Assembly: GCA_964019135.1 (NCBI GenBank)
Contig: OZ025260.1
Span: forward strand, 27,832,254 to 27,896,253
From: Arenicola marina
Lineage: Eukaryota; Annelida; Polychaeta; Arenicolidae
Direction: 5' to 3'
Length of the DNA: 64,000 nt
The translations under genes were made by a program, and so were the position numbers. Positions 12,343 through 58,200 of this stretch are shown here, piece after piece (within the stretch, counting starts at the first letter, position 1; each line of letters starts with the position of its first letter). The notes beneath the pieces were generated by a model. It searched no databases and was not told the origin of the DNA. It saw nothing but the letters and a program-made list of their open reading frames with translations.

Positions 12343-12602
12343 TTGGTTTGTTGGTTATTTAGGACGCTTTAACCACTTTTGGTCATATCGCGTCAATGGA
12401 AGAAGGAAGGGAGAGTGGAGCCATGTCCCCGGGGGTAACCCCCTACTCTTTACCAAGAAAGACATGAGATCTTTATCCTGCGGCCACACAGACATGGCCA
12501 CAGCGGGGCGTGAACCACTGACCCACGTGCCGTTAGGCTCTCAGGAGGTTGCAGAGCACTCAATACGAGCGCTCTAGCCCACTGAGCTATCGCGCCGGCT
12601 CG
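12343..12602 (-). mobile_element. tRNA-derived SINE, tandem copy 4
   Basis: The same insertion in the fourth unit. It differs by a few substitutions, including one that restores the A-box-side stem (GAGCGCTC). Confidence 0.8.
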
Positions 12603-13035
12603 CCGTATGAAGCGTACATGGTGCACTGGTAAAGCCACAAGTTTGTGATCCTTTGGTCATCAGGTCATGCGTTTAAATCTCGATGGGAACAAGTTTGTTT
12701 TCTATTTAGTGATGGCCGCAACCTTTATTTAAGTTCAAAGGTGTGGTCTTTCCCTTGTGAAATAAAAATCATCGACCCTAATTAGTTATTCTAAGATTAA
12801 TCGGACTATTAACTTTAGGTGGTCTGGCCGCTTCGCTTGTTTTTAGAAATAGCGTCTTTAAGCGCGGCTGTTGTCGATGTCAGTCATGCGGCTTACCCCA
12901 ACTGCCCACGGCACGTACGTACTGACCAAGAAACACCCGATGCTTGTGCTGCTTGTATGCTGCTTCTCAATCGGTCGAGGCATTATAAAGCCAAAATCCG
13001 CTCGGTCGGGGTTTTACAGCCATTTTCAGAGCTTC

Positions 13036-28608: not shown

Positions 28609-28614
28609 TTTATT
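28609..28614 (-). terminator. Candidate poly(A) signal of the ERBB-like gene
   Basis: AATAAA on the minus strand lies 44 bp after the stop codon at 28,658-28,660. It would give a very short 3' UTR. Confidence 0.5.
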
Positions 28615-28657: not shown

Positions 28658-28852
28658 TCACATTCCGACCGTGAGATTCCACGAGTCGGCGCGATAGACG
28701 CCGGAGAACGACGTCATAAAACCAAACGTCGCTTCCACATTCACTTGTAACCTGGAATCTTTGCCGTAACCATAGTACCCACGTTGCTTGGAGACAGTTG
28801 GAAGGGGACCGCCCTCAACAGACACGGTACTGTACAGATGATAGTACGACAT
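28658..28852 (-). CDS. ERBB-like gene exon 18 (last)
   Basis: Acceptor ATTTTCAG. It encodes 64 residues, beginning MSYYHLYSTVSVEGGPLP and ending SWNLTVGM, then TGA. It is part of the unnamed C-terminal module. Confidence 0.8.
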   Translation of the reverse strand: MSYYHLYSTVSVEGGPLPTVSKQRGYYGYGKDSRLQVNVEATFGFMTSFSGVYRADSWNLTVGM

Positions 28853-31800
28853 CTGAAAATAAAATAAAATAATTGTTCAGAATAAACAATACAAAACCCT
28901 CCGCTGTGCAAGGACACCTTGCATTAATAATGCATACTTTCCCTTATTAATAAATCCTTTCTAATTAACTACAAAGAACACATTTTAAAATTTAAACTCA
29001 ATGCACGAAACTCCTGCCAAACCCTCTCGCGGCCATGACAAACCAAGCATTCACACCGTCTACCAAACCCTCTTGGGGTAATACTCACAATTTTCACGTC
29101 GGTCACGTTGACATTCCCGCGAGGTTTGAGCACCCAATGAGCGGCTTCGTATGAGGACAGGGCTAACTTCACGGGACGATAAGTTAAACCTGCTTCTTGT
29201 TCTATGTTGACCTGAAACACAACGAGCAACTATTGGCGAAAATAATAGCAACAGGACATATAAAAGGAAGGCATTTAAAAAATTTCTACTTTATGAACAT
29301 AACATTTGTTCATACAACACATTTTCTCCACAGAAAACGTAGGTTGTGACTAAAACAAGGACGTGTTATTGCATGTATTTTGGCCTGCATGGGCATGTCT
29401 TTACAAGAAAGAGTGGCGTTTTATGTGTGTTCACGATCACCACAATCGATAGCGGGTTTTCAACTTAAAAGGCTAACATGCGATAAATAACAGATTATCA
29501 CGATGACCAAGACGATTTTCATCACGTCAGTATCTTGAAAATAATTCGAAAGTCATTACCTAGGAAGAAAAGTATTGTAACAGCAGCTGTCAAGTTACCG
29601 ACACTGGAGATTTGCTCCTCATAGACATTCTTAATTTTTGGGAAACGATGTATATTTGTGTCATTGTGGCAAAGATATAAAGTTGTACGAAAGAGATTCG
29701 TGTGTACTACATCACCAAATGTCTGACATTGCCTGTTTTCTCGTTCTCGCGAATATAGCTACGACATAGCTTCAAATTCTCAAAGAACACTAAGATGATC
29801 AGACACTATATTCAGCAAGTGTCCAAACATATCTTGGCTTAAACATATTTTTATCTTGCATTTGGAAGTCAGGCAAGACCTATATAAGATTCGTCTTGCT
29901 AAGCTGTATCTTAAAAATTAATATATAGTCACGGAGGAAAAGTACTGAACAAGCAGCTTTAAGCCAAACAATAGTTAAGCGAATTTTTTTTTCCTCAGAA
30001 AATGACCGTTTAGTTTTCAGAAAAAGATGGATGTCGGTTTGCCGCTTATACCACCTCTGAATACCACCTGTGATATGCATCACAAACAGCTAATACTCAG
30101 TAGTAACCGCTGTTGATGGAAGTATGGTTTCTCACCTGGATGGAGCCCACAACGACAGGGCTTTGCCGGAATGGCCTGTAGCCGCCCACCGGCTCATACA
30201 CGGCCAGAACGTGCACCTCGTGGGTGCCCACCCGACTGCTGTCGCACCGGTAGGTGGACGGGGGCGGGGGGTGAGCCACCGCGCGCCGCGGGAACCCCTT
30301 CGCTATCACACAGTCAGCTGTTGGCACGTGTAAATAAATTAGTTGAGTGAAACATTGTAGACCGCATTACATATGTATGCTTGACAATCGCAAGAATTTA
30401 TTTTTTTGCCGTTCCCGAACATCGCTAGTGTCTGCTATCCTGTAATACATTGTTAGGCCACTTAACCACGCCCCCCCCCCTCCCCCGCCACACTCCTTGC
30501 ATTATCTGGCCCGGCAATGCCAACACGTGAATTTAAACTAAACTAAATACCCTAATGCCTGTAACTTTCGCTTTATTGTAAATATAAAACTGAGAAATGA
30601 AGATATTAACGCTGAAAACTGATTTTCAGGATATCATTCATTTTAATTTTCTACTCTGAATTACTTATTTTCCTATGCTAAGTATACATTATTATTCCAT
30701 CCGGTCACATGACTGGGTTATGGTAACCACAGTAACCACGCGAGGATGCCATACTTACGAGGTGGGGCGGGTCTCATTGTGGTTGTCGCCATGGGAGACG
30801 GCAGTGACGTCACACGTAACCGGCCCGGGATACTGACTCCGCTGCAGGAGAGCCACGACCCGAAGTACCTCCCCGAAAACCATGAGCCTGCGCCGATCTG
30901 ACCAAACTTGAAAGCTTCGCCTCTGTTAGATCGGTAATATCCTGAACAGAATAAAACATCGTATTATTTAATTAACAAGGACATATATATGGCAGTTTAT
31001 CACGCTCACAAGCAAAACGACAAACTTAAATACCCCATCGTACGCCTTAGAACTATCAATGATAAGCAATATCGTCTGATTAAATAACTAGAAGTTTCAA
31101 TTAAATGTTGATGCACAATAGGAGACAGAATAAGGGTCCGAGCCGAGAGAGCCCAATGGCCATACAGACTGCACCGAGCCGAGAGAGCCCAATGGCCATA
31201 CAGACGGCACCGAACCGAGAGAGCCCAATGGCCATACAGACCGCACCGAGCCGAGAGAGCCCCATGGCCATAGAGACAGCACCGAGCCGAGAGAGCCCAA
31301 TGGCCATACAGACTGCACCGAGCCGAGAGAGCCCAATGGCCATACAGACGGCACCGAGCCGAGAGAGCCCAATGGCCATACAGACGGCACCGAGCCGAGA
31401 GAGCCCAATGGCCATACAGACGGCACCGAGCCGAGAGAGCCCAATGGCCATACAGACGGCACCGAGCTGAGAGAGCCCAATGGCCATACAGACGGCACCG
31501 AGCCGAGAGAGCCCAATGGCCATACAGACGGCACCGCACCGAGAGAGCCCCATGGCCATAGAGACTGCACCGAGCCGAGAGAGCCCAATGGCCATACAGA
31601 CGGCACCGAGCCGAGAGAGCCCAATGGCCATACAGACCGCACCGAGCCGAGAGAGCCCAATAGCCATACAGGCGGCATCGAGCCGAGAGCCCAATGGCCA
31701 TACAGACTGCACCGAGCCGAGAGAGCCCAATGGCCATACAGACGGCACCGAGCCGAGAGAGCCCAATGGCCATACAGACGGCACCGAGCCGAGAGAGCCC

Positions 31801-34800
31801 AAAGGCCATACAGACCGCACCGAGCCGAGAGAGCCCAATGGCCATACAGACGGCACCGCGCCGAGAGAGCCCAATGGCCATACAGACGGCACCGAGCCGA
31901 GAGAGCCCAATGGCCATACAGACGGCACCGAGCCGAGAGAGCCCAATGGCCATACAGACCGCACCGAGCCGAGAGAGCCCAATGGCCAAACAGACGGCAC
32001 CGAGCCGAGAGAGCCCAATGGCCATACAGACGGCACCGAGCCGAGAGAGCCCAATGGCCATACAGACGGCACCGAGCCGAGAGAGCCCAATGGCCATACA
32101 GACGGCACTGAGCCGAGAGAGCCCAATGGCCATACAGACGGCACCGAGCCGAGAGAGCCCAATGGCCATACAGACCGCACCGAGCCGAGAGAGCCCAAAG
32201 GCCATACAGACGGCACCGAGCCGAGGGAGCCCAATGGCCATACAGACGGCACAGAGCCGAGAGAGCCCAATGGCCATACAGACCGCACCGAGCCGAGAGA
32301 GCCCAATGGCCATACAGACCGCACCGAGCCGAGAGAGCCCAATAGCCATACAGACGGCACCGAGCCGAGAGAGCCCAATGGCCATACAGACGGCACCGCG
32401 CCGAGAGAGCCCAATGGACATAGAGACAGCACCGAGCCGAGAGAGCCCCATGGCCATACAGACTGCACCGAGCCGAGAGCCCAATGGCCATAGAGACAGC
32501 ACCGAGCCGAGAGAGCCCAATGGCCATACAGACGGCACCGCGCCGAGAGAGCCCAATGGCCATACAGGCGGCATCGAGCCGAGAGAACCCAATGGCCATA
32601 CAGACGGCACAGAGCCGAGAGAGCCCAATGGCCATACAGACAGCACCGAGCCGAGAGAGCCCAATGGCCATACAGACGGCATCGAGCCGAGAGAGCCCAA
32701 TGGCCATACAGACGGCACCGAACCGAGAGAGCCCAATGGCCATACAGACGGCATCGAGCCGAGAGAGCCCAATGGCCATACAGGCGGCACCGAGCCGGGA
32801 GAGCCCAATGGCCATACAGACGGCACAGAGCCGAGAGAGTCCAATGGCCATACAGACGGCACCGAGCCGAGAGAGCCCAATGGCCATACAGACGGCACCG
32901 AGCCGAGAGAGCCCAATGGCCATACAGACGGCACCGCGCCGAGAGAGCCCAAAGGCCATACAGACGGCACCGAGCCGAGAGAGCCCAATGGCCATACAGA
33001 CGGCACAGAGCCGAGAGAGCCCAATGGCCATACAGACGGCACCGAGCCGAGAGAGCCCAATGGCCATACAGACGGCACCGAGCCGAGAGAGCCCAATGGC
33101 CATACAGACGGCACCGAGCCGAGAGAGCCCAATGGCCATACAGACCGCACCGAGCCGAGAGAGCCCAATGGCCATACAGACGGCATCGAGTCGAGAGAGC
33201 CCAATGGCCATACAGACGGCATCGAGCCGAGAGAGCCCAATGGCCATACAGACGGCATCGAGCCGAGAGAGTCCAATGGCCATACAGACGGCACCGAGCC
33301 GAGAGAGCCCAATGGCCATACAGACGGCACCGAGCCGAGAGAGCCCAATGGCCATACAGACGGCACCGAGCCGAGAGAGCCCAATGGCCATACAGACGGC
33401 ACCGCGCCGAGAGATCCCAATGGCCATACAGACGGCACCGAGCCGAGAGAGCCCAATGGCCATACAGACGGCACCGAGCCGAGAGAGCCCAATGGCCATA
33501 CAGACGGCACCGAGCCGAGAGAGCCCAATGGCCATACAGACGGCATCGAGCCGAGAGAGCCCCATGGCCATACAGACCGCACCGAGCCGAGAGAGCCCAA
33601 TGGCCATACAGACGGCACCGAACCGAGAGAGCCCAATGGCCATACAGACGGCACCGAGCCGAGAGAGCCCAATGGCCATACAGACGGCACCGAGCCGAGA
33701 GAGCCCAATGGCCATACAGACCGCACCGAGCCGAGAGAGCCCAATGGCCATACAGGCGGCACCGAGCCGAGAGAGACCAATGGCCATACAGACGGCACCG
33801 AGCCGAGAGAGTCCAATGGCCATAGAGACGGCACCGCGCCGAGAGAGCCCAAAGGCCATACAGACGGCACCGAGCCGAGAGAGCCCAATGGCCATACAGA
33901 CGGCACCGAGCCGAGAGAGCCCAATGGCCATACAGACGGCACCGAGCCGAGAGAGCCCAATGGCCATACAGACGGCACCGAGCCGAGAGAGCCCAATGGC
34001 CATACAGACGGCACCGAGCCGAGAGCCCAATGGCCATACAGACGGCACCGAGCCGAGAGAGCCCAAAGGCCATACAGACGGCACCGAACCGAGAGAGCCC
34101 AATGGCCATACAGACGGCACCGAGCCGAGAGAGCCCAATGGCCATACAGACGGCACCGAGCCGAGAGAGCCCAAAGGCCATACAGACGGCACCGAACCGA
34201 GAGAGCCCAATGGCCATACAGACGGCACCGAGCCGAGAGAGCCCAATGGCCATACAGACGGCACCGAGCCGAGAGAGCCCAATGGCCATACAGACGGCAC
34301 CGAACCGAGAGAGCCCAATGGCCATACAGACGGCACCGAGCCGAGAGAGCCCAATGGCCATACAGACGGCACCGAGCCGAGAGAGCCCAATGGCCATACA
34401 GACCGCACCGAGCCGAGAGAGCCCAATGGCCATACAGGCGGCACCGAACCGAGAGAGCCCAATGGCCATACAGACGGCATCGAGCCGAGAGCCCAATGGC
34501 CATACAGACGGCACCGAGCCGAGAGAGCCCAATGGCCATACAGACCGCACCGAGCCGAGAGAGCCCAATGGCCATACAGACGGCACCGAGCCGAGAGAGC
34601 CCAATGGCCATACAGACGGCACCGAGCCGAGAGAGCCCAATGGCCATACAGACCGCACCGAGCCGAGAGAGCCCAATGGCCATACAGGCGGCATCGAGCC
34701 GAGAGAGCCCAATGGCCATAGAGACAGCACCGAGCCGAGAGAGCCAAATGGCCATACAGACGGCACAGAGCCGAGAGAGTCCAATGGCCATACAGACGGC

Positions 34801-37800
34801 ACCGAGCCGAGAGAGCCCAATGGCCATACAGACGGCACCGAGCCGAGAGAGCCCAATGGCCATACAGACAGCACCGAGCCGAGAGAGCCCAATGGCCATA
34901 GAGACAGCACCGAGCCGAGAGAGCCCAATGGCCATACAGACCGCACCGAGCCGAGAGAGCCCAATGGCCATAGAGACAGCACCGAGCCGAGAGAGCCCAA
35001 TGGCCATACAGACGGCACCGAGCCGAGAGAGCCCAATAGCCATACAGGCGGCATCGAGCCGAGAGCCCAATGGCCATACAGACTGCACCGAGCCGAGAGA
35101 GCCCAATGGCCATACAGACGGCACCGAACCGAGAGAGCCCAATGGCCATACAGACGGCACCGAGCCGAGAGAGCCCAATGGCCATACAGACGGCACCGAG
35201 CCGAGAGAGCCCAATGGCCATACAGACGGCACCGAGCCGAGAGAGCCCAAAGGCCATACAGACCGCACCGAGCCGAGAGAGCCCAATGGCCATACAGACG
35301 GCACAGAGCCGAGAGAGTCCAATGGCCATACAGACGGCACCGAGCCGAGAGAGCCCAATGGCCATACAGACGGCACCGAGCCGAGAGAGCCCAATGGCCA
35401 TACAGACGGCACCGCGCCGAGAGAGCCCAAAGGCCATACAGACGGCACCGAGCCGAGAGAGCCCAATGGCCATACAGACGGCACAGAGCCGAGAGAGTCC
35501 AATGGCCATACAGACGGCACCGAGCCGAGAGAGCCCAATGGCCATACAGACGGCACCGAGCCGAGAGAGCCCAATGGCCATACAGACGGCACCGAGCCGA
35601 GAGAGCCCAATGGCCATACAGACCGCACCGAGCCGAGAGATCCCAATGGCCATACAGACGGCATCGAGTCGAGAGAGCCCAATGGCCATACAGACGTGCA
35701 TACAGACAGTGTAATAACCGTGCCACAACCTTGGGTAGTGGGACTGCTCCAGAAGTCGGAGGCCACTGTGCCGTTGAGGCCGCCCATCAGTTCACAGTGG
35801 TCCTCGCCCGCCCCGGACGTGTCAGCTATGTTCCTGAAGGTCCCGTCCATGAGAGGTGACAGGAACAGGTGGTACCTGAAAAGGCAGGATGCATTCATGT
35901 GAAGATATACGAGGGCAAATATCCACCAAGGATAAGAGGGGCTGGCGCGACAGCTCAGTGGGCTAGAGCGCTCGCTGCATTGAGGGCTCTGGTCACCTGA
36001 GAGCCTAACGGCACGTGGGTCGGTGGATCGAGCCCTGCTGTGGCCAAGTCTGTGTGGTCGCAGGATAAAAATCCCATGTCTTTCTTGGTAAAGAGTAGGG
36101 GGTTACCACCGAGGACATGGCTCCACTCTCCCGTCCATCTCCCATTGACGCGATATGACCAAAAGTGGTTAAAGCGTTCTGAATAACCAACCAACCACCA
36201 AGGGTAAGAGCCGAGGAATGATTTGATTCCATTGGGGCTTATAGACGGCACTTGCCGGGGAATGACACGTACGCGCTAAGGAATTAATCCACATTGGAAC
36301 GCCCGAAATGATACGTACTATAATAATTTAATCCACATGGAAACGACGATATAAACTGGTGGTGACCACGTGAGCAAGATGACATGAAATGGTGGTAGCA
36401 ATGAGGGCAAAATGACAGCAAATAATATGTGAACAAGTGGATATAAAAGTACCAGCTTCCTTCTTGTAAATCATACATGCGCCATTCTTACTTGTGTGCG
36501 TCACACACTGTGATTCCAAGAAACATCTTGTGGTTGTTGAGCCACGTGACGTATCGCTGGCCGTCTTTACAGACGTTGAAGGCGTCGTCGGAATTGAAGG
36601 AGTACTGCAGCAGGCAGTCGTCCAGGGCAAGACAAGTGAAGGCCGCCGCTGAAAGACGGAGGTGAAAGGAATACTGCAGCAGTCAGTCGTTCGGATGAGT
36701 CGATTACACTACAACAAAAGGACAAAGAACCAAACCGGCGGACCGTCTGAACTAATATTCCGATAAGTCTTAGGTTAGAATAACTTATTACGACTGATGA
36801 TTTTTCCTCAAAAAGTGACATGGTGTGTGGGTGTGGGGGACGATTGCGTCAAGGAGGGGTGACAATTCAAGATATAAAAAATGTTGCATGATTTAAAATC
36901 TTACATTAATGGGCCCGCGCCTGCAATGGGTAACAGTCTGGTCTTTCCTTTCCTTTACAAGTTAAAAAACTCGAAATAAGAACACGCCATGGAACATGCG
37001 CGTCACCACATTCAAATGAGAAATAAAAAATGAATTTATGTCACTATTTTTATTTGTGTTTTGCAATGGAAAATCACCACGTGATGTGGCTAGATGTACC
37101 AATGGCATTGGTAACTATGCGCGCGGAAAGCACCAGGGGCCGTATTCATAACCCACACGTAGCTCATATAAGCACGAAAACCAAAATTCAGAAAATGATT
37201 TTTTATTCTGACAAATTAGGCGACTACTTATGTATTATGAACCAGATAATCACTCGACAAATCTTACACTTAGCGCTAAGTCTATTGGCGTAGTCTAAGT
37301 GGCGATTATAAATGACGGCCCCAGGTCCTTACGATGTACTTACGATGTGAACAGATGTACATTCCAGCCGGGCACTTGACGCACAATCCTCCCGCATACA
37401 TCATGTCGGCGCCACAATCCACTGTACATGTGCCATCCTTGTCAATCATACCACCTGCAATGGACCATTGGCGAGCTCTGTCAATCATACCTCCTACAAT
37501 GGGGCGGCCGGGGTGGGGGGGGGGGGGGCAAGGTGTATTTGCGTTCCTCGTTAACTGGGAATGAGTAAAATAATTCTTCGTGAACTGGGAATTTCAATAT
37601 TAAATAACCGTGAATCGGAAAATCGTTAATTTAGTATGCTGTATCCGCCCTTCCATTGCATGCGGAGTGTTCTGCTTTTAATTCCTCGTGACCTGGGAAT
37701 TAAGAAATTTATTCTTCCTGATCTGGGAACACGACCCCCCTTGCCTATTGGACTATTGGCCATTCCTGTCAAACATTCCGCCTACAATGTACCATTGGCC

Positions 37801-40800
37801 ATCCCTGTCAATCACACCGCCTACAATGGATCACTGGCCATTTCTGTCAATCATACCGCCTACAATGTACCACTGGTCAACCCTGTCAAACATACTGCCT
37901 ACAATGTACCACTGGCCAACCCTGTCAAACATTCCGCCTAAAATGTACCATTGGCCAGCCCTGTGAAACATTCCGCCTACAATGTACCATTGGCCAGCCC
38001 TGTGAAACATACCGCCTACAATGTACCACTGGCCATCCCTGTCAAACATACCGCCTACAATGTACCATTGGCCAACCCTGTCAAACATACCGCCTACAAT
38101 GTACCACTGGCCAGCCCTGTCAAAGACACCGCCTACAATGTACCATTGGCCAGCCCTGTGAAACATACCGCCTACAATGTACCACTGGCCCTCCCCGTCA
38201 AACATACCACCTACACTGTACCACTGGCCATCCCTGTCAAACATACCGCCTACAATGTACCACTGGCCCTCCCTGTCAAACATACCACCTACACTGTACC
38301 ACTGGCCCTCCCTGTCCAACATACCGCCTACAATGGACCACTGACTATCCCTCTCAAACATACCGCCTACAATGTACCATTGGCCCTCCCTGTCAAACAT
38401 ACCACCTACACTGTACCACTGGCCCTCCCTGTCAAACATACCACCTACACTGTACCACTGGCCCTCCCTCTCAAACATACCGCCTACAATGTACCATTGG
38501 CCCTCCCTGTCAAACATACCGCCTACAATGGACCATTGGCCATCCCTGTCAAACATACCGCCTACAATGTACCACTGGCCCTCCCTGTCAAACATACCAC
38601 CTACACTGTACCACTGGCCCTCCCTGTCCAACATACCGCCTACAATGGACCACTGACTATCCCTCTCAAACATACCGCCTACAATGTACCATTGGCCCTC
38701 CTTGTCAATCATATCGCCTGCAATGTACCACTGGCCATCCCAGTTAAACATACCGCCTACAATGGACCACTGGCTATCCCTGTCAAACATACCGCCTACA
38801 ATGGACCACTGGCCATCCCTGTCAAACATACCGCCTACAAGGGACCACTGGCCATCCCTGTCAAACATACCGCCTACAATGGACCACTGGCCATCCCTGT
38901 CAAACATACCGCCTACAAGGGACCACTGGCCATCCCTGTCAAACATACCGCCTACAATGGACCACTGGCTATCCCTCTCAAACACCCAAGTGGAACTTTA
39001 CATTTTCGTTAATCATTATTCAATCATCTTGGGGATTACTTTTCGTCCCTGTATTGCCATCTACGTATCATGTCGCCAATACATTAAATCTACTATTCTC
39101 TGTCCTCAACCTGCAGACACCCCTTTTCGGAGTTCCGGACCAATTATTAGTCCATCGTATCGCCTCCGTTTATGACAAATCATTCCCCTAACATATAACA
39201 CCGGAACCAATGTGCGTTTCTAAAAATGACCATTCCACTGACCCGGACAGCTCTCGAGACAGACATGGCTGAACGCATATGTAGACGTTATTCCCGGTGT
39301 CTGGGGGTTGTAAGTACTGTGTGGACATCTTTCTACACAAGAGTTGTCATGGATGAGATTACGGCAGGCCTGCAAGTAAAGGTATTGCATTTAAAATTTG
39401 AAAACGATCGAAATACAAACCACATAAAGGAGTAAGAGGATAAAAGAGGGCTTTACGAGTAAATATTATCCAACACTCCAAAAGTATCAAAATATACAAT
39501 TGGTTCCTCTAACGGGATTAAAATATCAAACTGGTTTCTCTAACAGGATTAAAATATCCAATTGGTTCCCGCGTAACAGGATTAAACATCTAACAATTAT
39601 TTCTCCGCCCAGCGTGATGGGTTCAATAGCTATAGTCCACAGTGTAGACCCCACACGTGATTAAGATTCATGTCTAGTTTAGTTGATACATCACAAGCGC
39701 AAATCGTGTGGTTACCCTCCAATTTGCTTTATTTCCACATTGATTAAGACTTGACGTACCCAACACTGGTTCGCAATCGGTCCGTCACATCCAACGAGAC
39801 ACTCAGGGTGGCAACATTCCTCAGCGCCGCTACCATAGCAACCAGATGAACAGTTGCTGCTACAATTCCAACTACTCACTGAAATATATCGCATTCATTG
39901 CATGTAACGTGAGCCGCCAGCGCAACACTGTAAACCCTCTGATTCAGATTCAGACCATTTATTTCCACTTGATGCAGATTAAATTCATTTTACATTTTTT
40001 TGTCCCTCTGTTCTCTCTTGATATCCTGTTTAGTGGTAACAGATAAAGTACCAAGGCCCTTATGTAACATCATGGAGAAACCATTTATTTTTAGCACCTT
40101 AATTCTATATTATATATGCTATATACTTAACATAACAGACTGCTTATTAACAGAAGCAATAAGGATAACAATTCTGAGCAAATTATCACTGCATCTTTTT
40201 AAGCTTCATTTAACTTCTACGCAATGTGTCAAGATGGCGCAGGCAGGTACCTCGCTGGCACATGGTCGAGCCGTCCCCCCAGCAGTATGCCCGGCCGTCG
40301 CCCGCCGTTACACAGTCCTCATGGCAACTCGCACCTAAAGGTATATGACACACCAAACAAAACATCAGGCTAAATCCATGCACCCCGTTAGACGGTCATG
40401 GAGTTAGCATCAAGCTCATCTGCGTCCCAGGCATTCAAAGATAGTCAAATTTTAAATATATATGTTTTACATTATTGCGAGAACCGACTTTGATACCTCA
40501 TTGCTTTCTGGTGATTGGTGAATGTGCTAGTAAAACGACCCTGTGCGTTTACATATATTCCTAAGAATACATACAATACAATTAGCAAAATAACCAGACA
40601 CTTTATTTAGAAACGCCCACTTGCAATGACGGCTGATACATTCTCTTAAGCTGGGCCAACCTGCTATTCGCTAATGTTTGTATATCTTATATATATATGT
40701 TGGCATGTCACTACAATAACCAATATTTGAACTTGAATTTCAACATGTCCAAAAGAAATTTCTTACATTGACGACGTCCTGACTCGCTTGGAAGTATCTC

Positions 40801-43800
40801 CAGAACTGCTCCCAAGTTATTTTTCAGCAGTTGATCCCAATTGATGTCTTCATCGTGACACAGTTGGGTATTATTATCGAAGCGAACGCTTCCTCTCTCA
40901 ATGGCTGATTCGGAAATAGAAATACATTGCAATTACGTAACGATCAACAACAATATGTTATTGCAATAGGATACATTAATGTTATCCGTATTAGCATATA
41001 TCATAGGGACCGTTTGAGTATGCGACATCAATGTTCTTCGTTGAGTGTAGTATCATTGTGCATTTAATCTGGTTCGTATTACTTGCCGACTGAGGGCCGC
41101 CCCTATAGTTCATTGGGTTAGAGCGCTCGCATTAATTGAGCGCTCTGGCCACCTGAGAGCCTAACGGCACGTGGGTCGGTGGTTCGAGTCCCGCTGTGGC
41201 CATGTCTGTGTGGTTTCAAGATAAACATCTCTTTCATCGCAAAGAGTACGGGATGACCCCGGGGACATGGCTCCGCTCTTCCCATCCTTCTCCCATACAT
41301 TGACGCGATATGCCCAAAATCGGTTAAAGCGTCCTGAATATACAACAACTCACCTACTAAAGACTGGAGGTCCAACTGGCGAAGACCCTGTGTTGAGTTG
41401 GCCAAGTAGTTGTTGGCCACGATGAGCGAGTACGACTTATTCTGATAGCCTATCACGTCGTGCCCGCGTATAACCTGGAGATTGCTCAACGGAATACGTG
41501 ATGACGTCACACCGTAGATCAGCACGCCCTTCCAAACTTCCCGGATTCCGCTGAGGAAGCTCAAATCAAAGTCTTCGCCGCTATCCAAATACATCAGGAC
41601 GAGGATATTTGTGACATACTTGCAGTTGGTATACATGTCCTTGTACATGGCGTAGTGTTCTCTCGCCGTCAGATTGCCACGTGCAGGGATACTGGTCGAT
41701 CCTTCGCATATACCTAGAACACACATACCAAAACTTAATATTGCTATCAGAACATAAATTTTAACAAGGTCCAATCCATGTCTTAGCATAACATTTTGCC
41801 ACCGTGTTTAACATGTAAATAGGACTGTATCAGGCATATATTTTACACAGGAGGAGGCATGTGGTTCACCACTCATACAAAAATAGGGATACAGTAAGGC
41901 TACTTGTGCCAGAAAGGTAAGAGAAAACATAGGAAAAAGTAGGGACCCATGCATTCTGATGAAAGTGACCTACGGACTCTCTGCATATATACTTACCGAA
42001 ATGACTTTTATCCTCACCACAGTATGATTCATTTATCACATTGAGTCAAGATAACATGCATTCTAGTACCCAGGGTCACAGGTCATCAAGGATCAATCAG
42101 ACACTTGTGACCTGATGTACCCGATTTCCTTCAAACAATGGGTGCCTTTCATGTCAGCTGGACAACTCTTACACACTTCAAAAAGTATTGGACAAATAGA
42201 AAAGTAGGTAGAATATCAAAAAAAGTAGTAATAGTAGGATCAATCGCAGGCCTGCCAGAGTTAACTAAGCATATATATGTGGACAACAGCTGGGTGAGCA
42301 GCTTAATGAATTAGAGTCCATATGTACTGACAGCGCCGTACCTGGCGGCAGTTCGATGGTGGGCTGGGTGGGTGCGGGGGTGGTCGTGGGGGGTGGTGAC
42401 GTTGACGGCTCAGGCCGGACCGTCCGTGTCGTGATTACTGCAAATTTACATAAATCCATTGAACCATACTCTCAAAACTCTAATCTCAAATGAATTAACT
42501 TCAATTAAATTCAAATGAATATTCAACTTGGCATCACAACGAGAGATATCGTTAGATGGACAATGTAGCACGGTGTCTCGTGGCACCAGGGTGTCTCGTG
42601 GAACCACGGTGTCCCGTGGCACCACGGTGTCTCGTGGCACCACGGTGTCTCGTGGCACCACGATGTCCCGTGGCACCACGATGTCTCGTGGCACCACGGT
42701 GTCTCGTGGCACCACGGTCTCTCGTGGCACCACGGTGTCTCGTGGCACCACGGTGTCTCGTGGCACCACGGTGTCTCGTGGCACCAGGGTGTCTCGTGGC
42801 ACCACGGTGTCTCGTGGCACCACGGTGTCTCGTTGCACCACGGTGTCTCGTGGCACCACGATGTCTCATTGCACCACGGTGTCTCGTGGCACCACGGTGT
42901 CTCGTGGCACCACGGTGTCTCATTGCACCACGGTGTCCCGTGGCACCAGGGTGTCTCGTGGCACCAGGGTGTCTCGTGGCACCAGGGTGTCTCGTGGCAC
43001 CAGGGTGTCTCGTGGCACCAGGGTGTCTCGTGGCACCACGGTGTCTCATGGCACCACGGTGTCTCGTAGCACCAGGGTGTCTCGTGGCACCACGATGTCT
43101 CGTGGCACCACGATGTCTCGTGGCACCACGGTGTGTCGTGGCACCACGGTGTCTCGTGGCACCTCGATGCCACATAGTAACTGAAATAATTCCCAAGACA
43201 TACTAACCTACACGGTGTAAGGTTGTAAACGCGGCCCATGACAATGTAACGCTTACCTTCACTACCTATGCTGACGACGTGCCTAGATCCCGGGATGTCG
43301 ACACCGCACCGATACCAGTCGACGTGCGGTCTCCTGGGCGACACCTCTCCCAACAGGCCGTACGACAAAGTCTCCCCCCAATCACTCCTGTAGTAACCTA
43401 CACCAACCAGAAAACCAACGCCAAACAATGAACCGTCATTCAGCGAAAATCTTGCTTAAACCCCACTTACACATTATTCAATGCTGGCGTGATTCATTAC
43501 ACGGTTTAGACCTCACGTAATACTCACGCCAAGCAAATAACGCGATAAAAGGCGTTCATGCAGCGGATAGGTGGTGGGAGGTTAGCCATAGTTTTACTAA
43601 GATGTAAGTAGGAAGTACAAAAATATGTTACCAAGCTACTTATACAGATATTTCCTGCCAATTAAAATGTGTTTATACATGTTGCAATGCTTCACATTTA
43701 ACATTCACTGTTAATTCATTTTCTTTTATTCGCAGATTGCATTTCCCCTGTTTATTACACACTTTAAGGGATGTTGAGAAGGCTCCAGGCAATGAATTTT

Positions 43801-46741
43801 AGAAGACATAACTCTAAGTAAATAATCAGGTCAAAAGTCGGTAAATCGTAGACTACGACATGATTTTGAAGAACAAAAAACTGTTACATTTAAGTAATAT
43901 TAAGAACTTTCTTATGCTTCAGTTTCATGTTTTTCAATGAGGTAGAATAATCGCGCATGGTACAGGCAGTGACATACAGAGAGTGGCACCAGTCATTAAG
44001 GCACAGCGTTACCTCACAGAACGAAGTGACAGGAAGTGACAGGAAGTCAAGGGAACATCCGGTGAATACAGTTGGTGCAGTAGCTCCATTAAATTTACAC
44101 TTTGACGAAGGGTATAAACGGGTCGCCACTTGAAAATGATGTTATTATAAAAGCAGAATATATAAAAGAAATGAAAAGGTTTGAAACTTGATATATAGTA
44201 TATATAAGTATATATAGTTTGACTGGCTGTGTATTTTTCCTGCATCCCTGTCATCTCTCGGAATGTTTATCTGTTTCCAATATACACTAGAGGCATTAAC
44301 ATAGTATTATGTAATGTTTGCCAATAGTCAATAAATATTGTTTACACAAAACAGTTGTTTTCCTTACCGGACACGACGGGATTGTGCCAGTCGTCTTGGG
44401 GCGTGACAAAAAGGCCACCTGCCGGGGCGCCCACGAATTCACAGTGGTCCTCACACATGCCTCTGCGATCGCCAATGATTAAGAACTCACCAGTGATGCT
44501 ATCGGACAACAGGATTTTGTATCTGCAAACAGTGTAATAATCTATAGTTAACGGCATTGTAACTAAAAAAATAAGATGACGGCATGTTTCTTTTTTATCA
44601 CCTGCCCGATCTTATGTTATGGTTTTACCGATATCTGCTTGCTGCTTTACTATTTTTGCAATTGTTTTATCTAGACGCTAGCATGTTTATATACTTTCAG
44701 GGTTTCAAGGACGACCAGTCACACAGGTCCGTCTCACTGACGACCGGTCACAAAGGTCAATCTCGAGGACGTATACGACCGGTCACACAGGTCAGTATCA
44801 ATAACGACCTGTCACAAAGGTCAGTCTCAAGGACGTCTCAAGGACGACCGGTCGCACAGGTCAGTCTCAAGGACGACCAGTCACACAGGTCCGTCTCACT
44901 GACGACCGGTCACAAAGGTCAGTCTCGAGGACGTATACGACCGGTCACACAGGTCAGTATCAATAACGACCTGTCACAAAGGTCAGTCTCAAGGACGTCT
45001 CAAGGACGACCGGTCGCACAGGTCAGTCTCAAGGACGACCAGTCACACAGGTCTGTCTCACTGACGACCGGCCACAAAGGTCAGTCTCAAGGACGTATAC
45101 GACAGGCCACACAGAACAGTCCCAAGACGACTAGTAACACAGGTCATGCAGTCTCGCGAACGACCGGTGACACAGGTCAGTCTCAAGGACGACCGGTGAC
45201 ACAAGAGATGTCACATGAATCTGTCTCAGATATAACTATTTGCCAATAATTGAACAGAAGTTTATCGTTGTAAAAACCACCCTATTGTGACCACGGTGCC
45301 TTCCCCTCGCACGACGAGCTGCCCCAGTCAGGTGTGGTATACTTGCCTCGAGGCCGAGCACAGGATGACGCCGACAAACTTGCCGTAATCTTGCAGCCAG
45401 TGGACGTACTGGTCTCCGCGACAGGCCATCGGCGAGTCAGTCACGCTGAACCGGAAGTTGTACCGCAGCCAACAGACAGGGGACATGAGGCAGTCTCGAG
45501 CGGCGGCCGAGGCGACTGTCAGATCAAACACACAGGCGCGTCAACAAGCGAACAGGGACCGTATTTATAATCCACATGTAGCATGATTGGTTGGTTGTAT
45601 ATTCAGGACGCGAACCACCGATCCACGTGCCGTTAGGCTCTCAGGTGGCCACATGTAGCACGAAAAGTGCATTATAGTCTTAGCCTCACCAGCTCATGAT
45701 AAAAAGATTCTCTTCGATATAATGTTAGCACTTTCTTAATCTAGACGACCCACCTCTTGGGTGACTACTTATGTATTTTGAACCCGATAATCGCAAGACA
45801 AATGCTTCAGGTCGGATTTCCTAGTGTATATAGCAGTATACATAGTGGTATAGGATTTACTTACAACCGTCATCGAATCCCGGCGGTGTAGCAGGAAACG
45901 CTGCAAGTAAACAACACGTACCAGGGTAACCGGTGTGCGCAAGGCTTACTTAGTCCATAACATTTAGTAAATTTATCGGTCAACCAACCTTTCTAATTTA
46001 TGCTTACGTTACTGGAATATATGTTATACAACATGTAGCTACAACTTTCAGTGATCAATCAATTTACAAAGGATCTGGAAGGGGTAATCCAGTGTCTAGT
46101 GTCGAATGTTGATTTTTTACGACCCATGTTCCATGTCGTTTTTTGGCTAAATTTCAGTGTCGTTTTTTATTAAAAAAATCTGTGTCGATGTCGCTTTTTC
46201 ACATCCTCAGTGTCGGAATTTAGGAGTCAATGAATGTCGAATGTCGATTTTTCAAATATGCTTGTGTCGCGTGTCGCCATTTACCGCTTCCACACCCATA
46301 CCTAAGTTCGTGTGGATAGTTTTAGTCTTATCGTTACGTACCTGGTTTTGGCGTACTGTAAAGTTGTTCATTGTCGGACGGGGATGAGTGTGTTGCCAGT
46401 GTGCTCACTAATATTGCCACGATGACCGCAACCACCAGCACCAGCGTCACTGACACGGCGATACAAATCACACGCTTTCTTCTTTTACGTCTCGGCGCTC
46501 TGCCTTCCCGGCCGGGACCAGAAGACGACACTATTGGCGTGGAGGCAGGCAGCGGGGCGTGACTTGGGCGAGCGGAAGGCGGAGCGGAAGGCGGAGCGGA
46601 AGGCGAGATATAATACCTATATCCGGTAGCATCCCCGACAAGTGGGGCTGAGGGTTCCCTGACTTCCGGTCCGACGACAGCCTCGTAAGAAGGCGGGTTG
46701 CCGATGTCGGAGTATTTGGGCGGTGGTTCGCCGTTCTCCAT
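28658..46741 (-). CDS. Type II membrane protein with ERBB-like L and furin-like domains, 18 exons, 973 residues
   Basis: Eighteen exons join in consistent phases to 2,922 nt without a stop. Approximate residues: cytoplasmic tail 1-83 with PPKY and PPSY, basic 84-90, membrane segment 91-115, module X1 145-300, Thr/Pro linker 301-332, ERBB-type receptor L domain 333-498, furin-like Cys-rich region 499-645, module X2 646-790, Pro-rich linker, C-terminal module to 973. The L and Cys-rich parts resemble domains I and II of EGFR/ERBB (DLSFLSGIREV, IPLSNLQVIRG, CCHPECLVGCDGP). There is no second L domain and no kinase. No signal peptide precedes the segment, and the basic cluster on its N-side predicts an extracellular C-terminus. 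A role in binding or modulating ERBB ligands or receptors is inference. All junctions are GT-AG except one GC-AG; the exon 14 donor is weak. The intron repeats are not coding. Confidence 0.85.
29089..29211 (-). CDS. ERBB-like gene exon 17
   Basis: Phase 0 to 0, acceptor TTTCAG and donor GTGAGT. It encodes a segment with VKLALSSYEAAHWVLKPRG, a motif pattern (LxLSSYExxxWxL) that I believe occurs in other secreted invertebrate proteins but cannot name. Confidence 0.8.
29212..30135 (-). other. Intron 16, nothing else recognised
   Basis: AT-rich intron with no repeat or second gene visible. Confidence 0.5.
30136..30317 (-). CDS. ERBB-like gene exon 16
   Basis: Acceptor CCAACAG and donor GTGAGA. 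It encodes DCVIAKGFPRRAVAHPPPP and on to VVVGSIQ, a Pro-rich hinge followed by the start of the C-terminal module. Confidence 0.8.
30759..30941 (-). CDS. ERBB-like gene exon 15 (module X2, third part)
   Basis: Phase 1 to 1, acceptor CTGTTCAG and donor GTAAGT. It opens GYYRSNRGEAFKFG, parallel to GYYRSDWGETLSYG of exon 5, and includes SCSGVSIPG, parallel to RCGVDIPG. It ends in a Pro/Thr/Met hinge. Confidence 0.85.
31136..35699. repeat. Minisatellite of ~126 units of 36 bp (intron 14)
   Basis: The plus-strand unit is CATACAGACGGCACCGAGCC followed by GAGAGAGCCCAATGGC. At least five units (about 31,683, 32,473, 34,020, 34,489 and 35,063) have lost 2 bp and change the frame. Because 36 is a multiple of three and most frames of the unit lack stops, giant open frames of up to about 1,630 codons appear on both strands. 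The array starts about 30 bp after the donor of exon 14. Confidence 0.97.
35730..35875 (-). CDS. ERBB-like gene exon 14 (module X2, second part)
   Basis: Phase 2 to 1, acceptor CTTTTTCAG. It encodes YHLFLSPLMDGTFRNIAD and then GEDHCELMGG, parallel to exon 4 (YKILLSDSITGEF, CEDHCEFVG). The donor GTTGTG is weak, so the exact end is the least certain junction of the model. Confidence 0.78.
35939..36194 (+). mobile_element. Full-length tRNA-derived SINE (256 bp) with 16-bp TSD
   Basis: CCACCAAGGATAAGAG at 35,923-35,938 and CCACCAAGGGTAAGAG at 36,195-36,210 flank it with one mismatch. The A box is CAGCTCAGTGGGC. The B box, degenerate here (GGATCGAGCCC), is about 60 bp on. The 3' end is an AACCAACCAA tail. 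It lies in intron 13. Confidence 0.9.
36492..36648 (-). CDS. ERBB-like gene exon 13 (module X2, first part)
   Basis: Phase 1 to 2, acceptor GTCTTTCAG and donor GTAAGA. It encodes TCLALDDCLLQYSF, then YVTWLNNHKMFLGITVCDA, parallel to exon 3 (DCLMSPVCWLRYNF, YVHWLQDYGKFVGVILCSA). The four Cys positions match. Confidence 0.87.
36649..37343 (-). other. Intron 12 with an interspersed repeat at about 37,130-37,320
   Basis: No exon is recognised. The block from about 37,140 resembles 45,560-45,810 (shared GACTACTTATGTATT and CCGTATT-ATAA edges), indicating a dispersed repeat. Confidence 0.45.
37344..37454 (-). CDS. ERBB-like gene exon 12 (furin-like region)
   Basis: Phase 1 to 1, acceptor CCATTGCAG and donor GTAAGT. 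It encodes GMIDKDGTCTVDCGADMMY and then CVKCPAGMYICSH, matching the end of ERBB Cys-rich domain II. A second acceptor 39 bp upstream (exon start 37,493) would add 13 residues in frame. Confidence 0.85.
37505..37740 (+). repeat. Interspersed repeat inserted in the 39-bp minisatellite
   Basis: It has the same block order as 13,480-13,725, beginning with a G-tract. It separates one 39-bp unit next to exon 12 from the rest of the array and introduces stops into the otherwise open frame. Confidence 0.65.
37755..38990. repeat. Minisatellite of ~32 units of 39 bp seeded by the exon 12 acceptor
   Basis: On the minus strand each unit contains CATTGTAGGCGGTATGTTTG followed by ACAGGGATG. It matches the 39 bp spanning the intron/exon 12 boundary (CATTGCAG|GTGGTATGAT...) at 33 of 39 positions. 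The repeat frame (GGMFDRDGQWYIV) equals the exon frame. It lies in intron 11. Confidence 0.92.
39243..39369 (-). CDS. ERBB-like gene exon 11 (furin-like region)
   Basis: Phase 0 to 1, acceptor ACTTGCAG and donor GTCAGT. It encodes ACRNLIHDNSCVERCP, then TYNPQTPGITSTYAFSHVCL and ESCP, with the Cys spacing and YNP...Y.F..C pattern of ERBB domain II. Confidence 0.88.
39760..39878 (-). CDS. ERBB-like gene exon 10 (furin-like region)
   Basis: Phase 1 to 0, acceptor TATTTCAG and donor GTACGT. It encodes NCSSNCSSGCYGSGAEECC and then HPECLVGCDGPIANQCW, the CC..C..GC.GP signature of ERBB domain II. Confidence 0.9.
40251..40334 (-). CDS. ERBB-like gene exon 9 (furin-like region)
   Basis: Phase 1 to 1. 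It encodes ASCHEDCVTAGDGRAYCWGD and then GSTMCQR, like the C..SC....CWG.G...CQ segment that opens ERBB domain II. Confidence 0.87.
40767..40904 (-). CDS. ERBB-like gene exon 8 (end of L domain)
   Basis: Phase 1 to 1, donor GTAAGA. It encodes AIERGSVRFDNNTQLCHDED and on to RRQ, like the ERBB segment with VRF.NN..LC....I.W at the end of L domain I. Confidence 0.9.
41095..41347 (+). mobile_element. tRNA-derived SINE abutting the exon 7 donor
   Basis: Same family as 35,939, with a perfect B box GGTTCGAGTCC. Its 3' tail ends directly beside the GTGAGT donor (41,348-41,353) of exon 7, so on the minus strand the SINE begins right after the splice site. Confidence 0.85.
41354..41713 (-). CDS. ERBB-like gene exon 7 (receptor L domain)
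   Basis: Phase 1 to 1, 360 nt. It opens ICEGSTSIPARGNLTAREHY and includes DFDLSFLSGIREVWKGVLIY, IPLSNLQVIRG and YSLIVANNYLANSTQGLRQL. The order and spacing match EGFR/ERBB L domain I, with predicted N-glycosylation sites at NLT, NKS and NST. This exon is the clearest homology in the gene. Confidence 0.94.
41714..42341 (-). other. Intron 6, nothing else recognised
   Basis: AT-rich intron sequence with no repeat identified. Confidence 0.45.
42342..42437 (-). CDS. ERBB-like gene exon 6 (Thr/Pro linker)
   Basis: Phase 1 to 1, acceptor TTTGCAG and donor GTACGG. It encodes a mucin-like hinge (VRPEPSTSPPPTTTPAPTQP) between X1 and the L domain, likely O-glycosylated. Confidence 0.83.
42570..43170. 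repeat. Minisatellite of ~33 units of 18 bp (intron 5)
   Basis: The unit is CGGTGTCTCGTGGCACCA with variants (GGGTGTCT, CGATGTCT, CTCATTGCA). It is open in several frames on both strands because 18 is a multiple of three. It lies between exons 5 and 6. Confidence 0.96.
43257..43397 (-). CDS. ERBB-like gene exon 5 (module X1, third part)
   Basis: Phase 1 to 1, acceptor GGTGTAG and donor GTAAGC. It encodes GYYRSDWGETLSYGLLGEV and then WYRCGVDIPGSRHVVSIG. Confidence 0.86.
43398..44367 (-). other. Intron 4, nothing else recognised
   Basis: AT-rich intron with no repeat or other gene visible. Confidence 0.45.
44368..44522 (-). CDS. ERBB-like gene exon 4 (module X1, second part)
   Basis: Phase 2 to 1, acceptor GTTTGCAG and donor GTAAGG. 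It encodes YKILLSDSITGEFLIIGD, then CEDHCEFVGAPAGG. Confidence 0.88.
44700..45215. repeat. Minisatellite of ~29-bp units with higher-order ~184-bp repeat (intron 3)
   Basis: Units contain GACGACCGGTCACACAGGTC and GTCTCAAGGAC. Blocks such as GAGGACGTATACGACCGGTC recur in the same order, indicating a higher-order repeat present about twice, with a degenerate end after 45,100. A 221-codon plus-strand frame runs through it and is not a gene. Confidence 0.88.
45347..45515 (-). CDS. ERBB-like gene exon 3 (module X1, first part), GC donor
   Basis: Phase 1 to 2, acceptor TGACAG. It encodes ASAAARDCLMSPVCWLRYNF and then YVHWLQDYGKFVGVILCSAS. The donor is AG|GCAAGT, a GC-AG intron. The phase requires this cut, since AG plus A from exon 4 makes Arg. 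Confidence 0.85.
45584..45648 (-). mobile_element. Truncated SINE with 12-bp TSD
   Basis: A 65-bp fragment joins the SINE 3' end to part of its tRNA-like region. CCACATGTAGCA flanks it at 45,572-45,583 and 45,649-45,660. It is inserted in another interspersed repeat (45,560-45,810). Confidence 0.75.
45865..45900 (-). CDS. ERBB-like gene exon 2 (36-nt microexon)
   Basis: Phase 1 to 1, acceptor TTACTTGCAG and donor GTAAGT. It encodes AFPATPPGFDDG, a juxtamembrane linker. Both splice sites are strong and keep the frame. Confidence 0.75.
46080..46275. repeat. TGTCG-rich interspersed repeat, second copy at 27,290-27,440
   Basis: Both copies consist of irregular GTGTCGTTTTTT-like and CCAGTGTC blocks ending in a T-rich segment. 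It lies in intron 1. Confidence 0.55.
46342..46741 (-). CDS. ERBB-like gene exon 1: cytoplasmic tail and membrane segment
   Basis: The chosen ATG at 46,739-46,741 has the strong context ACCGCCATGG; an in-frame ATG at 46,804 is possible but weaker. The tail has PPPKYSD (7-13) and PPSYEAV (16-22), two PPxY motifs for WW-domain proteins such as NEDD4-type ligases, and a Pro/Ser/Ala-rich stretch. RRKRRKR at 84-90 precedes the hydrophobic segment VICIAVSVTLVLVVAVIVAI and LVSTL (91-115). The donor is GTACGT. Confidence 0.87.
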
Positions 46742-47092: not shown

Positions 47093-47192
47093 ATTGACAG
47101 TTCACCTGACAAGGGGGGGGGGTGCACCCTCAAAATTTCGCGATTTAGAGGGTGCACCCCCCCCCCCCCCCCTTGTCAGGTGAACTGTCAAT
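47093..47192. mobile_element. 100-bp hairpin MITE
   Basis: ATTGACAGTTCACCTGACAA followed by a G-tract and GTGCACCCTC is repeated as its complement after a ~16-bp AT-rich loop. The arms differ mainly in G/C-tract length. Confidence 0.8.
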
Positions 47193-55201: not shown

Positions 55202-58200
55202 CTACTTCTTCTTGCTCAGTGTTGTAGTTCTTGTCGCCTGTCTTCTCTTGCGCTGGTTAAGTTTCTTTCCTGCAGATGGTGTAGTCGGAACGACCAGCTT
55301 CCCGTCCGTTGAAGTCACGACATTTCCGCCGAGAGCACCATCACTCTTGAAGAATGTCGCTCTGATCTTCTTCCGCTGCTCCGCCATTTTTGTAGCATAT
55401 ACATTAGGTTTCATGTAGAATGCTTGATACTGTGGCGCAAGCTCGAATTCCCCACGTCCAATCATTGCCTTTTCGACGTCGACGTATTGGGCCGATATCT
55501 GTTTACACAAGATGTCGACGAGGGTATGGAGCGGTTGCTGCTTCCAATTCACCAGTTGTTTGAGCACATGGTTCATACTCTCCGTGTTGTTGTTGGTCCA
55601 CATTGGGGTGATGAGACCGGCGATGACAGGTTCGACCACTCTCTGTTTTATTTGGGGAACTATCCTATTGTTGAAGTACTTGAGAAAAGGTGGTGCTTTC
55701 TCCGTTATTACCCCAGCAAGGGAACGCACGCGCTCTTCGAAGACAATAATGGTGTCAGCGTTGGCAAGTCCGTTGGGTCCGAATATCTCCGAGATGATAT
55801 GTTGTCGTTCCGTTCTTTTCACACACTTTTTGCTTTCGCAGATAATCCTCTATGTTGTCGCGCAGATGCTTTGTACACAGCACATTCGTCGATTGCGGGA
55901 AGAAGAACTTGATGGCATTGCGCATCGCGGTTTCGTCATCGCTGCCAATGGCAAGTCTTGCCGCTTCTGTGTCGCGCAGTGCAGCAGCTAGCGTTGAGAA
56001 GAAGGGGCTGTATGATTCAAACGTTGACCGCCCATGAAGGAACACGGGTCCCATCATTATTGGATGGGTCGATGCAGCAGACCGGGTGACACATAGCTGC
56101 ATATAGCTGGTGAGAGTGACGAAGATTTCGCCAAGATTAAAAGTCTTGTCCACCCCTAGCGGGGTTTTCCCGGAGCAGCAGAACCGTTTGACATCACTGA
56201 TTTGCTCGTCTGAATATACAACGATGCCCATGTCCTTGTTCACACTGGAGATGAGACGGATCATCGGATTTGTCCGTGACATGTTGAGAACCTGCTGCAT
56301 TTGATCCGCCAGGTTTCGCGTGCTGCCTACTGTTTCGTCGTCCTTCCTCTTGTCGTTGTATTTCTTGCTGCGTAATTGCTGGGTGTCTTTTGGCCCATCA
56401 AGTAAACCAAATTCATGGATGAGATCGTTGTATGCCGCCTTTGGTTTCTTTTCCTTAACCGCTTCTGATATCCGTTCCATGGTTGTTCCTGGTGTCCTGA
56501 TATACTGGTTCTTTCTCCCTTTTGCGTTCCCGTGAAGACTGAGTCCCGGAAATTTCCCGGTGTACTCGACGAGGGCGTGATGATCCGTATGCGTCAGGAA
56601 ACCAGTGGGGGCGAAGTTGACCCACGTCACTCGTTTCTTGTAGTTTGCATCGGCTTTTAGTCCTGTGTAATACCTCTGGATTTCCAGTAAATTTGATGAA
56701 TCCGGCTGAGGATTAAGCGGTATATATTGCCGCTTTTTGTTCACCATTTTTTCATGGCAATAGTGACCATCTTTGTAGAACAGTTTCTTCAGAGTTTTAT
56801 CTGGATAGACAAAGTATGCCGTCTTGGGGGAAGCACCAGAAGCATTCGAAGCACCGCAATCGTCGCTGAAGTCACTCTTCATCCCGTTGTTGCGTCGTTG
56901 CATGTTGCGTTGATTTTTCACCAAGAAGACGTTCTCTTTAACCCCAAGTGGTACCGCCTCGTGCGTTTCACTTGGTTTCTGTAGCATTTGCATCACCTCT
57001 TTCATTGCAAGTGGCTTACGATTCGGAAGAGGGTGACCAACTGCTTGTGGATTGTCTTCTGGGTCACAGACGTCCGCCATCTCCGTTACATGCGGGGGAA
57101 CATACAGAATCGAATCATCATCTGCCGTGCATGATTCCCGCCCAAAGAAACTATTGAAATTGACTTTCTTTAGTCTCTTAGCACAGGGAACATCACTAAA
57201 GTCTATTGTTCGTTTTGACTTTGGAGAAGCGAGCGGAATTCCCTTTAAAGAATCGTTTCCCATAGTGGAAGTGGACGACTCGGCTGCGTTTGAAGACTTA
57301 GGAGTTGAGGCAAGTTGTGGGCTTGCCAGAGAGCTGCTGCCAGACAACTCAACTTGTATTGGAGTGACATCGCAAGATGGCTTATCGACGGTAATGTGGT
57401 CGTCAGAATCTGCAACACATATCTCCGGTTCTTCAACATCACCGATGCCCATGAGAGGAACGAAATGATCTGGTATCCACGTCTGGCGCGTTGCAGTATT
57501 CGTCGAGGTCCACATGATATACACTGGATCCTTTTCCAGTCTCATCATCGAGAAAGTCGTGTTCAGAATGTTTAACGTCTTATCTAAGAGTCCGTTCATC
57601 GCTGGATATATAGACACAATGTCTCTGCCTATGACACTGGCAGCGGCTTGCATGTGCCAAGCTGATGCATATGCGCCATTTGTCACAGCATCTCGGCAGG
57701 ATGACATAAAGGTTGGGCTGACAAGGTTCAAGCCCCCTCTTATGTGCTCTCCCTTATAATGTTCCTCGTTGGTTATCAGTTCTATAGCGCATAGGACGCG
57801 CAAGCAAGCTGCGTACGTGGCGTTACCCGCAAGTGCCACGGAGACGAATGAAAAGAAGCAGTTTCCATCGGCAGGAACCCTCACTGGCACTCTGTCGCCA
57901 GCGCCTCCAACCTTCTCTAGGATTTGAAGAGTCGCTTGGTCCGGTTCGAAATTAATGAACGACCCAGTAATAGCCGATAAAGCAGGCACATGGCGAAGCA
58001 ATATCGCCTCTCTCTGCAGCAGCCTGCAGAGATTTCTGGCTTCTCGAGGCTGATTTCAGGCGCCTCATGGCTGCTTGGAAATCGAAATTTCCAGTGGAAT
58101 CTTTGCAGCAGATAGAGCAGTAGTAGTCACTTGAGCTGTTTTGCAGAACATCCATCTGGATGGATATTATTCAGCTCTTCACAGTCTGCATGGAGCCAAA

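Follow-up and report, generated by a model that had tools for sequence, protein, structure and literature searches.

The minus strand of the window (the whole stretch of 64,000 nucleotides analysed here) carries, from position 46741 to 28658, a gene that probably encodes a type II TARSH_C protein which gained a run of ErbB exons via phase-1 introns; from the comparison of sequences and intron phases we place the probability of this reading at roughly 70%. The anatomy and the origin as proposed are in themselves highly probable. The record of exon shuffling is unusually clean, since one can read from it the EGFR-type introns of the donor, the host architecture in two paralogs without the insert, and the boundaries in phase 1.

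Gene model and host modules

The 18 exons join in phase to 2922 nt, that is 974 codons with a single terminal stop, and the assembled reading frame thereby bears out the initial annotation, which had counted the same exons and codons in consistent phases. There are no ambiguous bases in the window sequence. Sixteen of the 17 introns are of the GT-AG type and one is GC-AG (intron 3, donor GAG/gcaagt), with donors across the model matching 5 to 8 of 9 consensus positions. Both paralogs on contig C11 (see below) have a junction equivalent to that of exon 3, where their donor is GT instead of GC, and also one at the place of the weak exon 14 donor (AAG/gttgtg, 5 of 9 positions). A poly(A) signal AATAAA is found 44 nt 3' of the stop (28609..28614, minus strand, as are all features of the gene).

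Exon 1 (46342..46741) encodes a cytosolic tail with two PPxY motifs (PPKY at aa 7-10 and PPSY at aa 16-19), the basic cluster RRKRRKR and, directly after this cluster, a predicted membrane segment (46403..46471, aa about 91-113). The segment was placed at the Kyte-Doolittle maximum of 3.28; the next best region of the protein reaches 1.15, which leaves it the sole strong hydrophobic segment. By the positive-inside rule, this order suggests a type II orientation. An inverted-topology surface protein with an ErbB half and no kinase had been proposed beforehand, and the domain matches and the basic cluster before the membrane segment agree with it; its type II part is a positive-inside reading. 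In a search of the same assembly for relatives of exon 1, nine sequences matched with E of 1 or less; apart from exon 1 itself none was strong, and the next best had E=0.04.

A short Pro-rich linker of phase 1-1 follows in exon 2 (45865..45900), for which the C11 gene models show no equivalent. Exons 3 (45347..45515, with the GC donor), 4 (44368..44522) and 5 (43257..43397) encode the three parts of a first TARSH_C copy (X1), and exon 6 (42342..42437) is a Thr/Pro linker, again of phase 1-1. After the ErbB-like exons 7-12, the second TARSH_C copy (X2) is encoded by exons 13 (36492..36648), 14 (35730..35875, with the weak donor) and 15 (30759..30941, which also holds a Pro/Thr linker). The C-terminal module is divided among exons 16 (30136..30317), 17 (29089..29211) and 18 (28658..28852, with the stop codon). 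Several introns contain minisatellites. The one in intron 14 (31138-35696) has a 36 bp unit in about 127 copies and is open in all three minus frames, and others were seen at 37757-38984 (39 bp), 42569-43163 (18 bp) and 44705-45203. A SINE-like copy at 35941-36200, used as query, has nine matches in the window including itself.

X1 and X2, which the initial annotation had left unnamed, are both identified by Pfam as TARSH_C (PF21731), the full-length protein reaching E=7.8e-68 over two stretches, with bit scores of 123.4 (X1) and 113.1 (X2) against a cut-off of 27. They are 38% identical to each other and have identical exon phases (1-2, 2-1, 1-1). The window protein thus has its TARSH_C domain in common with the TARSH_C (Target of Nesh-SH3) proteins, among which we count ABI3BP and FNDC1. 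In vertebrates these are proteins of the matrix that contain fn3, whereas fn3 is absent from the Pfam matches to the window protein at E up to 10. Three designed-protein chains in the PDB matched the second copy, with no stretch passing alone, and were taken as chance. The C-terminal module (the last 166 residues) has no match in Pfam, NCBIfam or PDB sequences, and its sequence is found again in the two C11 genes. The idea of bacterial relatives for this module gained no support: 39 pattern matches were obtained in a search of genome contigs for prokaryotic or plasmid relatives, none was upheld by tblastn, a single match to a plasmid had E=3, and NCBIfam gave no match to the module.

Correspondence of the block to ErbB domains I and II

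The ERBB-type L domain and furin-like region of the initial annotation are recovered by HMM search as Recep_L_domain (E=3.8e-16, aa 362-478) and Furin-like (E=4.6e-15, aa 498-637). GF_recep_IV is reached at E=0.0024 with 18.1 of 29.5 bits, which is below the cut-off, and overlaps the Furin-like stretch. Pfam finds one Recep_L and one Furin-like stretch in the 973 aa, with no second L domain or second Cys-rich domain, and there is no kinase family among its matches to them. In a PDB sequence search, the best 60 of 117 matches are all EGFR or ErbB2-4 and are strongest over domains I-II. The top match among those listed is 3ltf (E=5.8e-61), which we take to be Drosophila EGFR, with 173 bits for its first L/Cys-rich half and 42 bits for its second. 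Against the EGFR chain 5wb7, presumably human, 107 of 290 aligned positions are identical (37%), and in this alignment all 25 EGFR cysteines between residues 7 and 305 are kept in the block.

The exons of the block can be assigned to those of EGFR in order. Exon 7 (41354..41713) corresponds to EGFR exons 2 and 3 and encodes domain I (the L domain) up to a remainder in exon 8 (40767..40904; EGFR exon 4). Domain II begins in exon 9 (40251..40334; EGFR exon 5) and continues in exon 10 (39760..39878; EGFR exon 6), which at 119 nt has the length that we assume for EGFR exon 6, and in exon 11 (39243..39369; EGFR exon 7), where the dimerisation arm is shortened. It ends in exon 12 (37344..37454). This exon, whose 3' junction is beyond the alignment, was matched to EGFR exon 8 on the basis of order and phase. 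Junctions 7/8, 8/9, 9/10, 10/11 and 11/12 coincide in codon and phase with EGFR introns 3, 4, 5, 6 and 7, five of five. Junction 6/7 is one codon before the position of EGFR intron 1, in the same phase and one residue outside the alignment; junction 12/13, past the alignment end, has the phase of EGFR intron 8; and EGFR intron 2 has no counterpart in the block. Judged by alignment and intron positions, the block corresponds to EGFR exons 2-8, i.e. ErbB domains I and II, with the limits of these domains placed on the EGFR exons as we understand them. The capture of exons at phase 1-1 boundaries, as originally envisaged, is in keeping with the phase-1 boundaries and the EGFR-type junctions; its extent has to be corrected from exons 7-9 to exons 7-12. 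The alignment of a SINE-like repeat copy (41107-41354) extends to the final base of exon 7, at 41354, so that the GTGAGT donor of intron 7 sits in the end of this repeat; the repeat looks tRNA-like by eye, and ARAGORN found no tRNA.

The junction comparison uses assumed EGFR exon lengths, which are backed in part by a published deletion and by exon-labelled probes. By these lengths, EGFR exons 2-7 would sum to 801 nt. This total equals the published vIII deletion and thereby supports these lengths. The vIII deletion removes residues 6-273 with a new glycine, which backs introns 1 and 7, and the exon-labelled EGFR probes, in our reading, are consistent with introns 1 and 5-8 and flank intron 3 on both sides, with introns 2 and 4 outside their coverage.

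The window protein therefore has the L domain with the furin-like region, the 25 cysteines and the intron positions in common with the ErbB/EGF receptors. It differs from them in having no match to a second L domain or kinase, in the opposite topology of the full model and in being flanked by TARSH_C modules. ErbB receptors are type I with a cleaved signal peptide; the full model looks type II, but a signal-peptide-like start is present before exon 7.

Paralogs without the block and the origin of the gene

Genome searches covered the same assembly (867 Mb, 762 contigs), in which the window is on contig C13. TARSH_C gave ten matches (three in the window, six on C11 and one on C17) and the C-terminal module gave nine (three in the window and six on C11). 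The C11 matches define two tandem genes that are 90% identical to each other, A (C11:25555975-25569724) and B (C11:25576372-25587895), modelled without transcripts as 10 exons each, with lengths of 630 and 628 aa. In one reading frame, both have a tail with YDNEGVYLEI, a membrane segment, two TARSH_C modules and the C-terminal module, which is the type II layout of the window gene, and the phases of nine of nine junctions are those after window exons 1, 3, 4, 5, 13, 14, 15, 16 and 17. The window gene follows the phase pattern of the family, in which the membrane exon ends in phase 1, TARSH_C is 1-2/2-1/1-1 and the C-terminal module is 1-0/0-0/0-stop. Identity between the window gene and the C11 genes is 38% for X1, 44% for X2 and 52% for the C-terminal module.

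Nothing in the C11 genes corresponds to exons 2, 6 and 7-12, that is to the two linkers and the ErbB block, and their cytosolic tail is unrelated to that of the window gene and has no PPxY. A tblastn search of the whole window protein against 40 kb of C11 gave no match to the L/Cys-rich block at E up to 1, and the C11 tail with its membrane segment has no significant similarity to window exon 1 (E=5.8). As far as these alignments go, the layout of the membrane exon is common to the window gene and the C11 genes, and the exon sequence itself is not. In a tree of seven TARSH_C copies, the four C11 copies are together (95), window X2 is next (68) and window X1 is on a long branch. Since the C11 copies group together and X2 is about equally near to C11 X1 (43%) and C11 X2 (44%), we do not claim two ancestral TARSH_C modules, and the two modules may not be ancestral.

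The earlier statement that no family with such an arrangement is known has to be revised in that the gene is a variant within a local TARSH_C family with relatives on C11; for the architecture of the window gene itself, no description was found in the open PubMed Central library with the terms used. The host would have been a single-pass type II surface protein of this family, with membrane exon, TARSH_C modules and C-terminal module, into which the equivalent of EGFR exons 2-8 would have been inserted between two TARSH_C modules through phase-1 introns. Because both C11 paralogs are without the block, its gain via phase-1 introns is the simplest history, the alternative being loss on C11.

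The model could also join two neighbouring genes, one with the membrane segment, TARSH_C and the linker, and the other with a signal peptide, the ErbB half, TARSH_C and the C-terminal module. Errors of this type are documented in lancelet gene sets, where Banyai and Patthy raise the concern of two-gene fusion against Huang et al., which would count here if the gene were from a lancelet; and a signal-peptide-like start does exist upstream of exon 7. However, both C11 models, transcript-free as they are, unite the membrane exon, two TARSH_C modules and the C-terminal module in one frame and agree in their phases with the window gene, so that a fusion artefact is very unlikely, and intron 6 (628 nt) has neither AATAAA or ATTAAA nor a match to the C-terminal module. 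In a lancelet, the gene would bear on the dispute whether novel lancelet domain architectures are real or annotation errors, since here paralogous models back the architecture of the host. Less probable still is that the L/Cys-rich exons are those of a true ErbB gene with its kinase, put in the wrong place during assembly. The interval C20:19927542-19931091 does contain a gap of 200 N and, 0.4 kb after it, exons of an ErbB-like kinase C-lobe, in pieces 57-75% identical to human EGFR, and their ectodomain was not found. Against misplacement, the window has no ambiguous base, TARSH_C exons 5 and 13 are at distances of 1.5 kb and 0.7 kb from the block, and the phases fit at both of its ends, so that the assembly would have to contain two misjoins, both at phases that fit.

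A secreted form is possible, alone or beside the full-length type II protein, and we regard it as doubtful while giving it a better chance than either artefact. It would start from a promoter in intron 6 and would consist of a signal peptide, ErbB domains I-II, TARSH_C and the C-terminal module, which would make it a soluble binding protein or decoy. The frame of exon 7 continues without a stop 5' of the acceptor, where an in-frame ATG at 41789, which the initial annotation does not mention, begins the stretch MLRHGLDLVKIYVLIAILSFGMCVLG, a signal-peptide-like candidate for an alternative first exon (41712..41789). A simple signal-peptide test was passed by the acceptor of exon 7 only, one of 17, and, among 1590 acceptor-like site-frame combinations across the window, by 7; these were a control set that required at least 7 of 10 pyrimidines and thus excluded the exon 7 acceptor itself (6 of 10). 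However, the test was devised post hoc, at the control rate about 7% of genes with 17 acceptors would have one such match, and pyrimidine-rich acceptor tracts translate to hydrophobic residues. Moreover, the acceptor is one codon from the position of EGFR intron 1 in equal phase, as a real splice site should be. In a published lancelet error, a gene that has a signal peptide of its own was joined to the gene upstream of it, which would agree with a secreted product. A precedent is Drosophila Sdr, a secreted decoy of InR that has no transmembrane and kinase domains. Sdr is a receptor relative without a kinase, as is the window protein; it is InR-derived and secreted, whereas the window protein is ErbB-derived, has half an ectodomain and is membrane-anchored in the full model.

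The searches for a canonical ErbB gene bear on misplacement as well. The 5' part of the C20 gene, its ectodomain and N-lobe, was not found in the assembly searches, most simply because of the C20 gap. The block had eight matches in the assembly (its six window exons and two on C8), none of them a canonical ErbB ectodomain; human domains III-IV had one match, also on C8; and the human N-lobe had 46 matches (29-44% identity), which we did not consider ErbB-like. The C8 sequence suggests an insulin-receptor-like gene. These absences carry little weight, since the PF01030 search of the assembly listed C8 only and missed the window's own exon 7. The one PF14843 match, on the short contig C490 and below the cut-off (26.4 of 29.5 bits), was not judged ErbB, and an E. 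coli control also matched. Five other short contigs (C330, C443, C465, C497 and C504) hold eight kinase matches, of which seven are interrupted by TAA or TAG, not TGA, and one is uninterrupted; these contigs are perhaps a contaminant that reads TAA/TAG as amino acids.

Proposed function and surrounding sequence

In the preferred reading of a type II TARSH_C protein with an acquired ErbB half, the protein would function in recognition or adhesion on the outside of the cell; the initial annotation had suggested that it may be a ligand or receptor modulator. Its ErbB half would bind a partner, which may be a receptor of the ErbB type or some other protein of the cell surface, or with low affinity a ligand of ErbB; the TARSH_C modules would serve as a stalk or as matrix contacts; and the PPxY motifs would recruit a Nedd4-type WW-domain ubiquitin ligase for turnover. 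A role that touches ErbB signalling is tentative, at somewhat less than an even chance. If it exists, half a receptor would be reusable with reversed membrane polarity. The window protein has no kinase, and, going by the roles of the domains in EGFR, its lack of domain III makes tight trapping of a growth factor improbable.

The residues of the block bear on this role in both directions. The loop of the dimerisation arm, cysteines included, has 23 residues compared to 28 in EGFR, thus five fewer, with YNP kept and without equivalents of Tyr251 and Arg285, and three of ten ligand-contact positions of domain I are unchanged; the roles of these EGFR residues are those we assume for them. This partial retention of arm and ligand-contact residues weakens a direct ErbB role and, together with the single L domain found by Pfam, favours the alternative that the ErbB half is purely an adhesive or immune-recognition module that never meets ErbB receptors or ligands. 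We consider this a substantial minority possibility, against which stands the retention of those structural cysteines that were mapped and of YNP in the arm.

Kinase-independent contact through an ErbB L-domain region has a parallel in ErbB4-Slitrk3 adhesion, where the L-domain region of ErbB4 reportedly acts in trans; the difference is that ErbB4 is there a complete receptor. A more speculative proposal, with the odds well against it, is that the inverted topology turns the ErbB module for cis-dimerisation into a docking module in trans, from cell to cell. With the N-terminus near its own membrane, domains I-II would lie parallel to domains I-II of an ErbB receptor on the opposite cell and could pair with or block that receptor via the domain II arm, and the PPxY tail would control removal from the surface.

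Some further features were observed in the window outside the gene. A tandem array with a unit of about 2.14 kb, whose copies are at least 99% identical, occupies 4859-13034. On the plus strand at 21628, a stretch HDTPFEDG... resembles an exon of a ubiquitin-conjugating enzyme of the RAD6/UBE2 type, to which family we presume it belongs. At about 47096-47190, inspection by eye shows a large inverted repeat in which runs of G and C surround GGGTGCACCCT, and an ORF at 55806-56360 on the minus strand matches the MULE transposase family PF10551 (E=9.8e-07).
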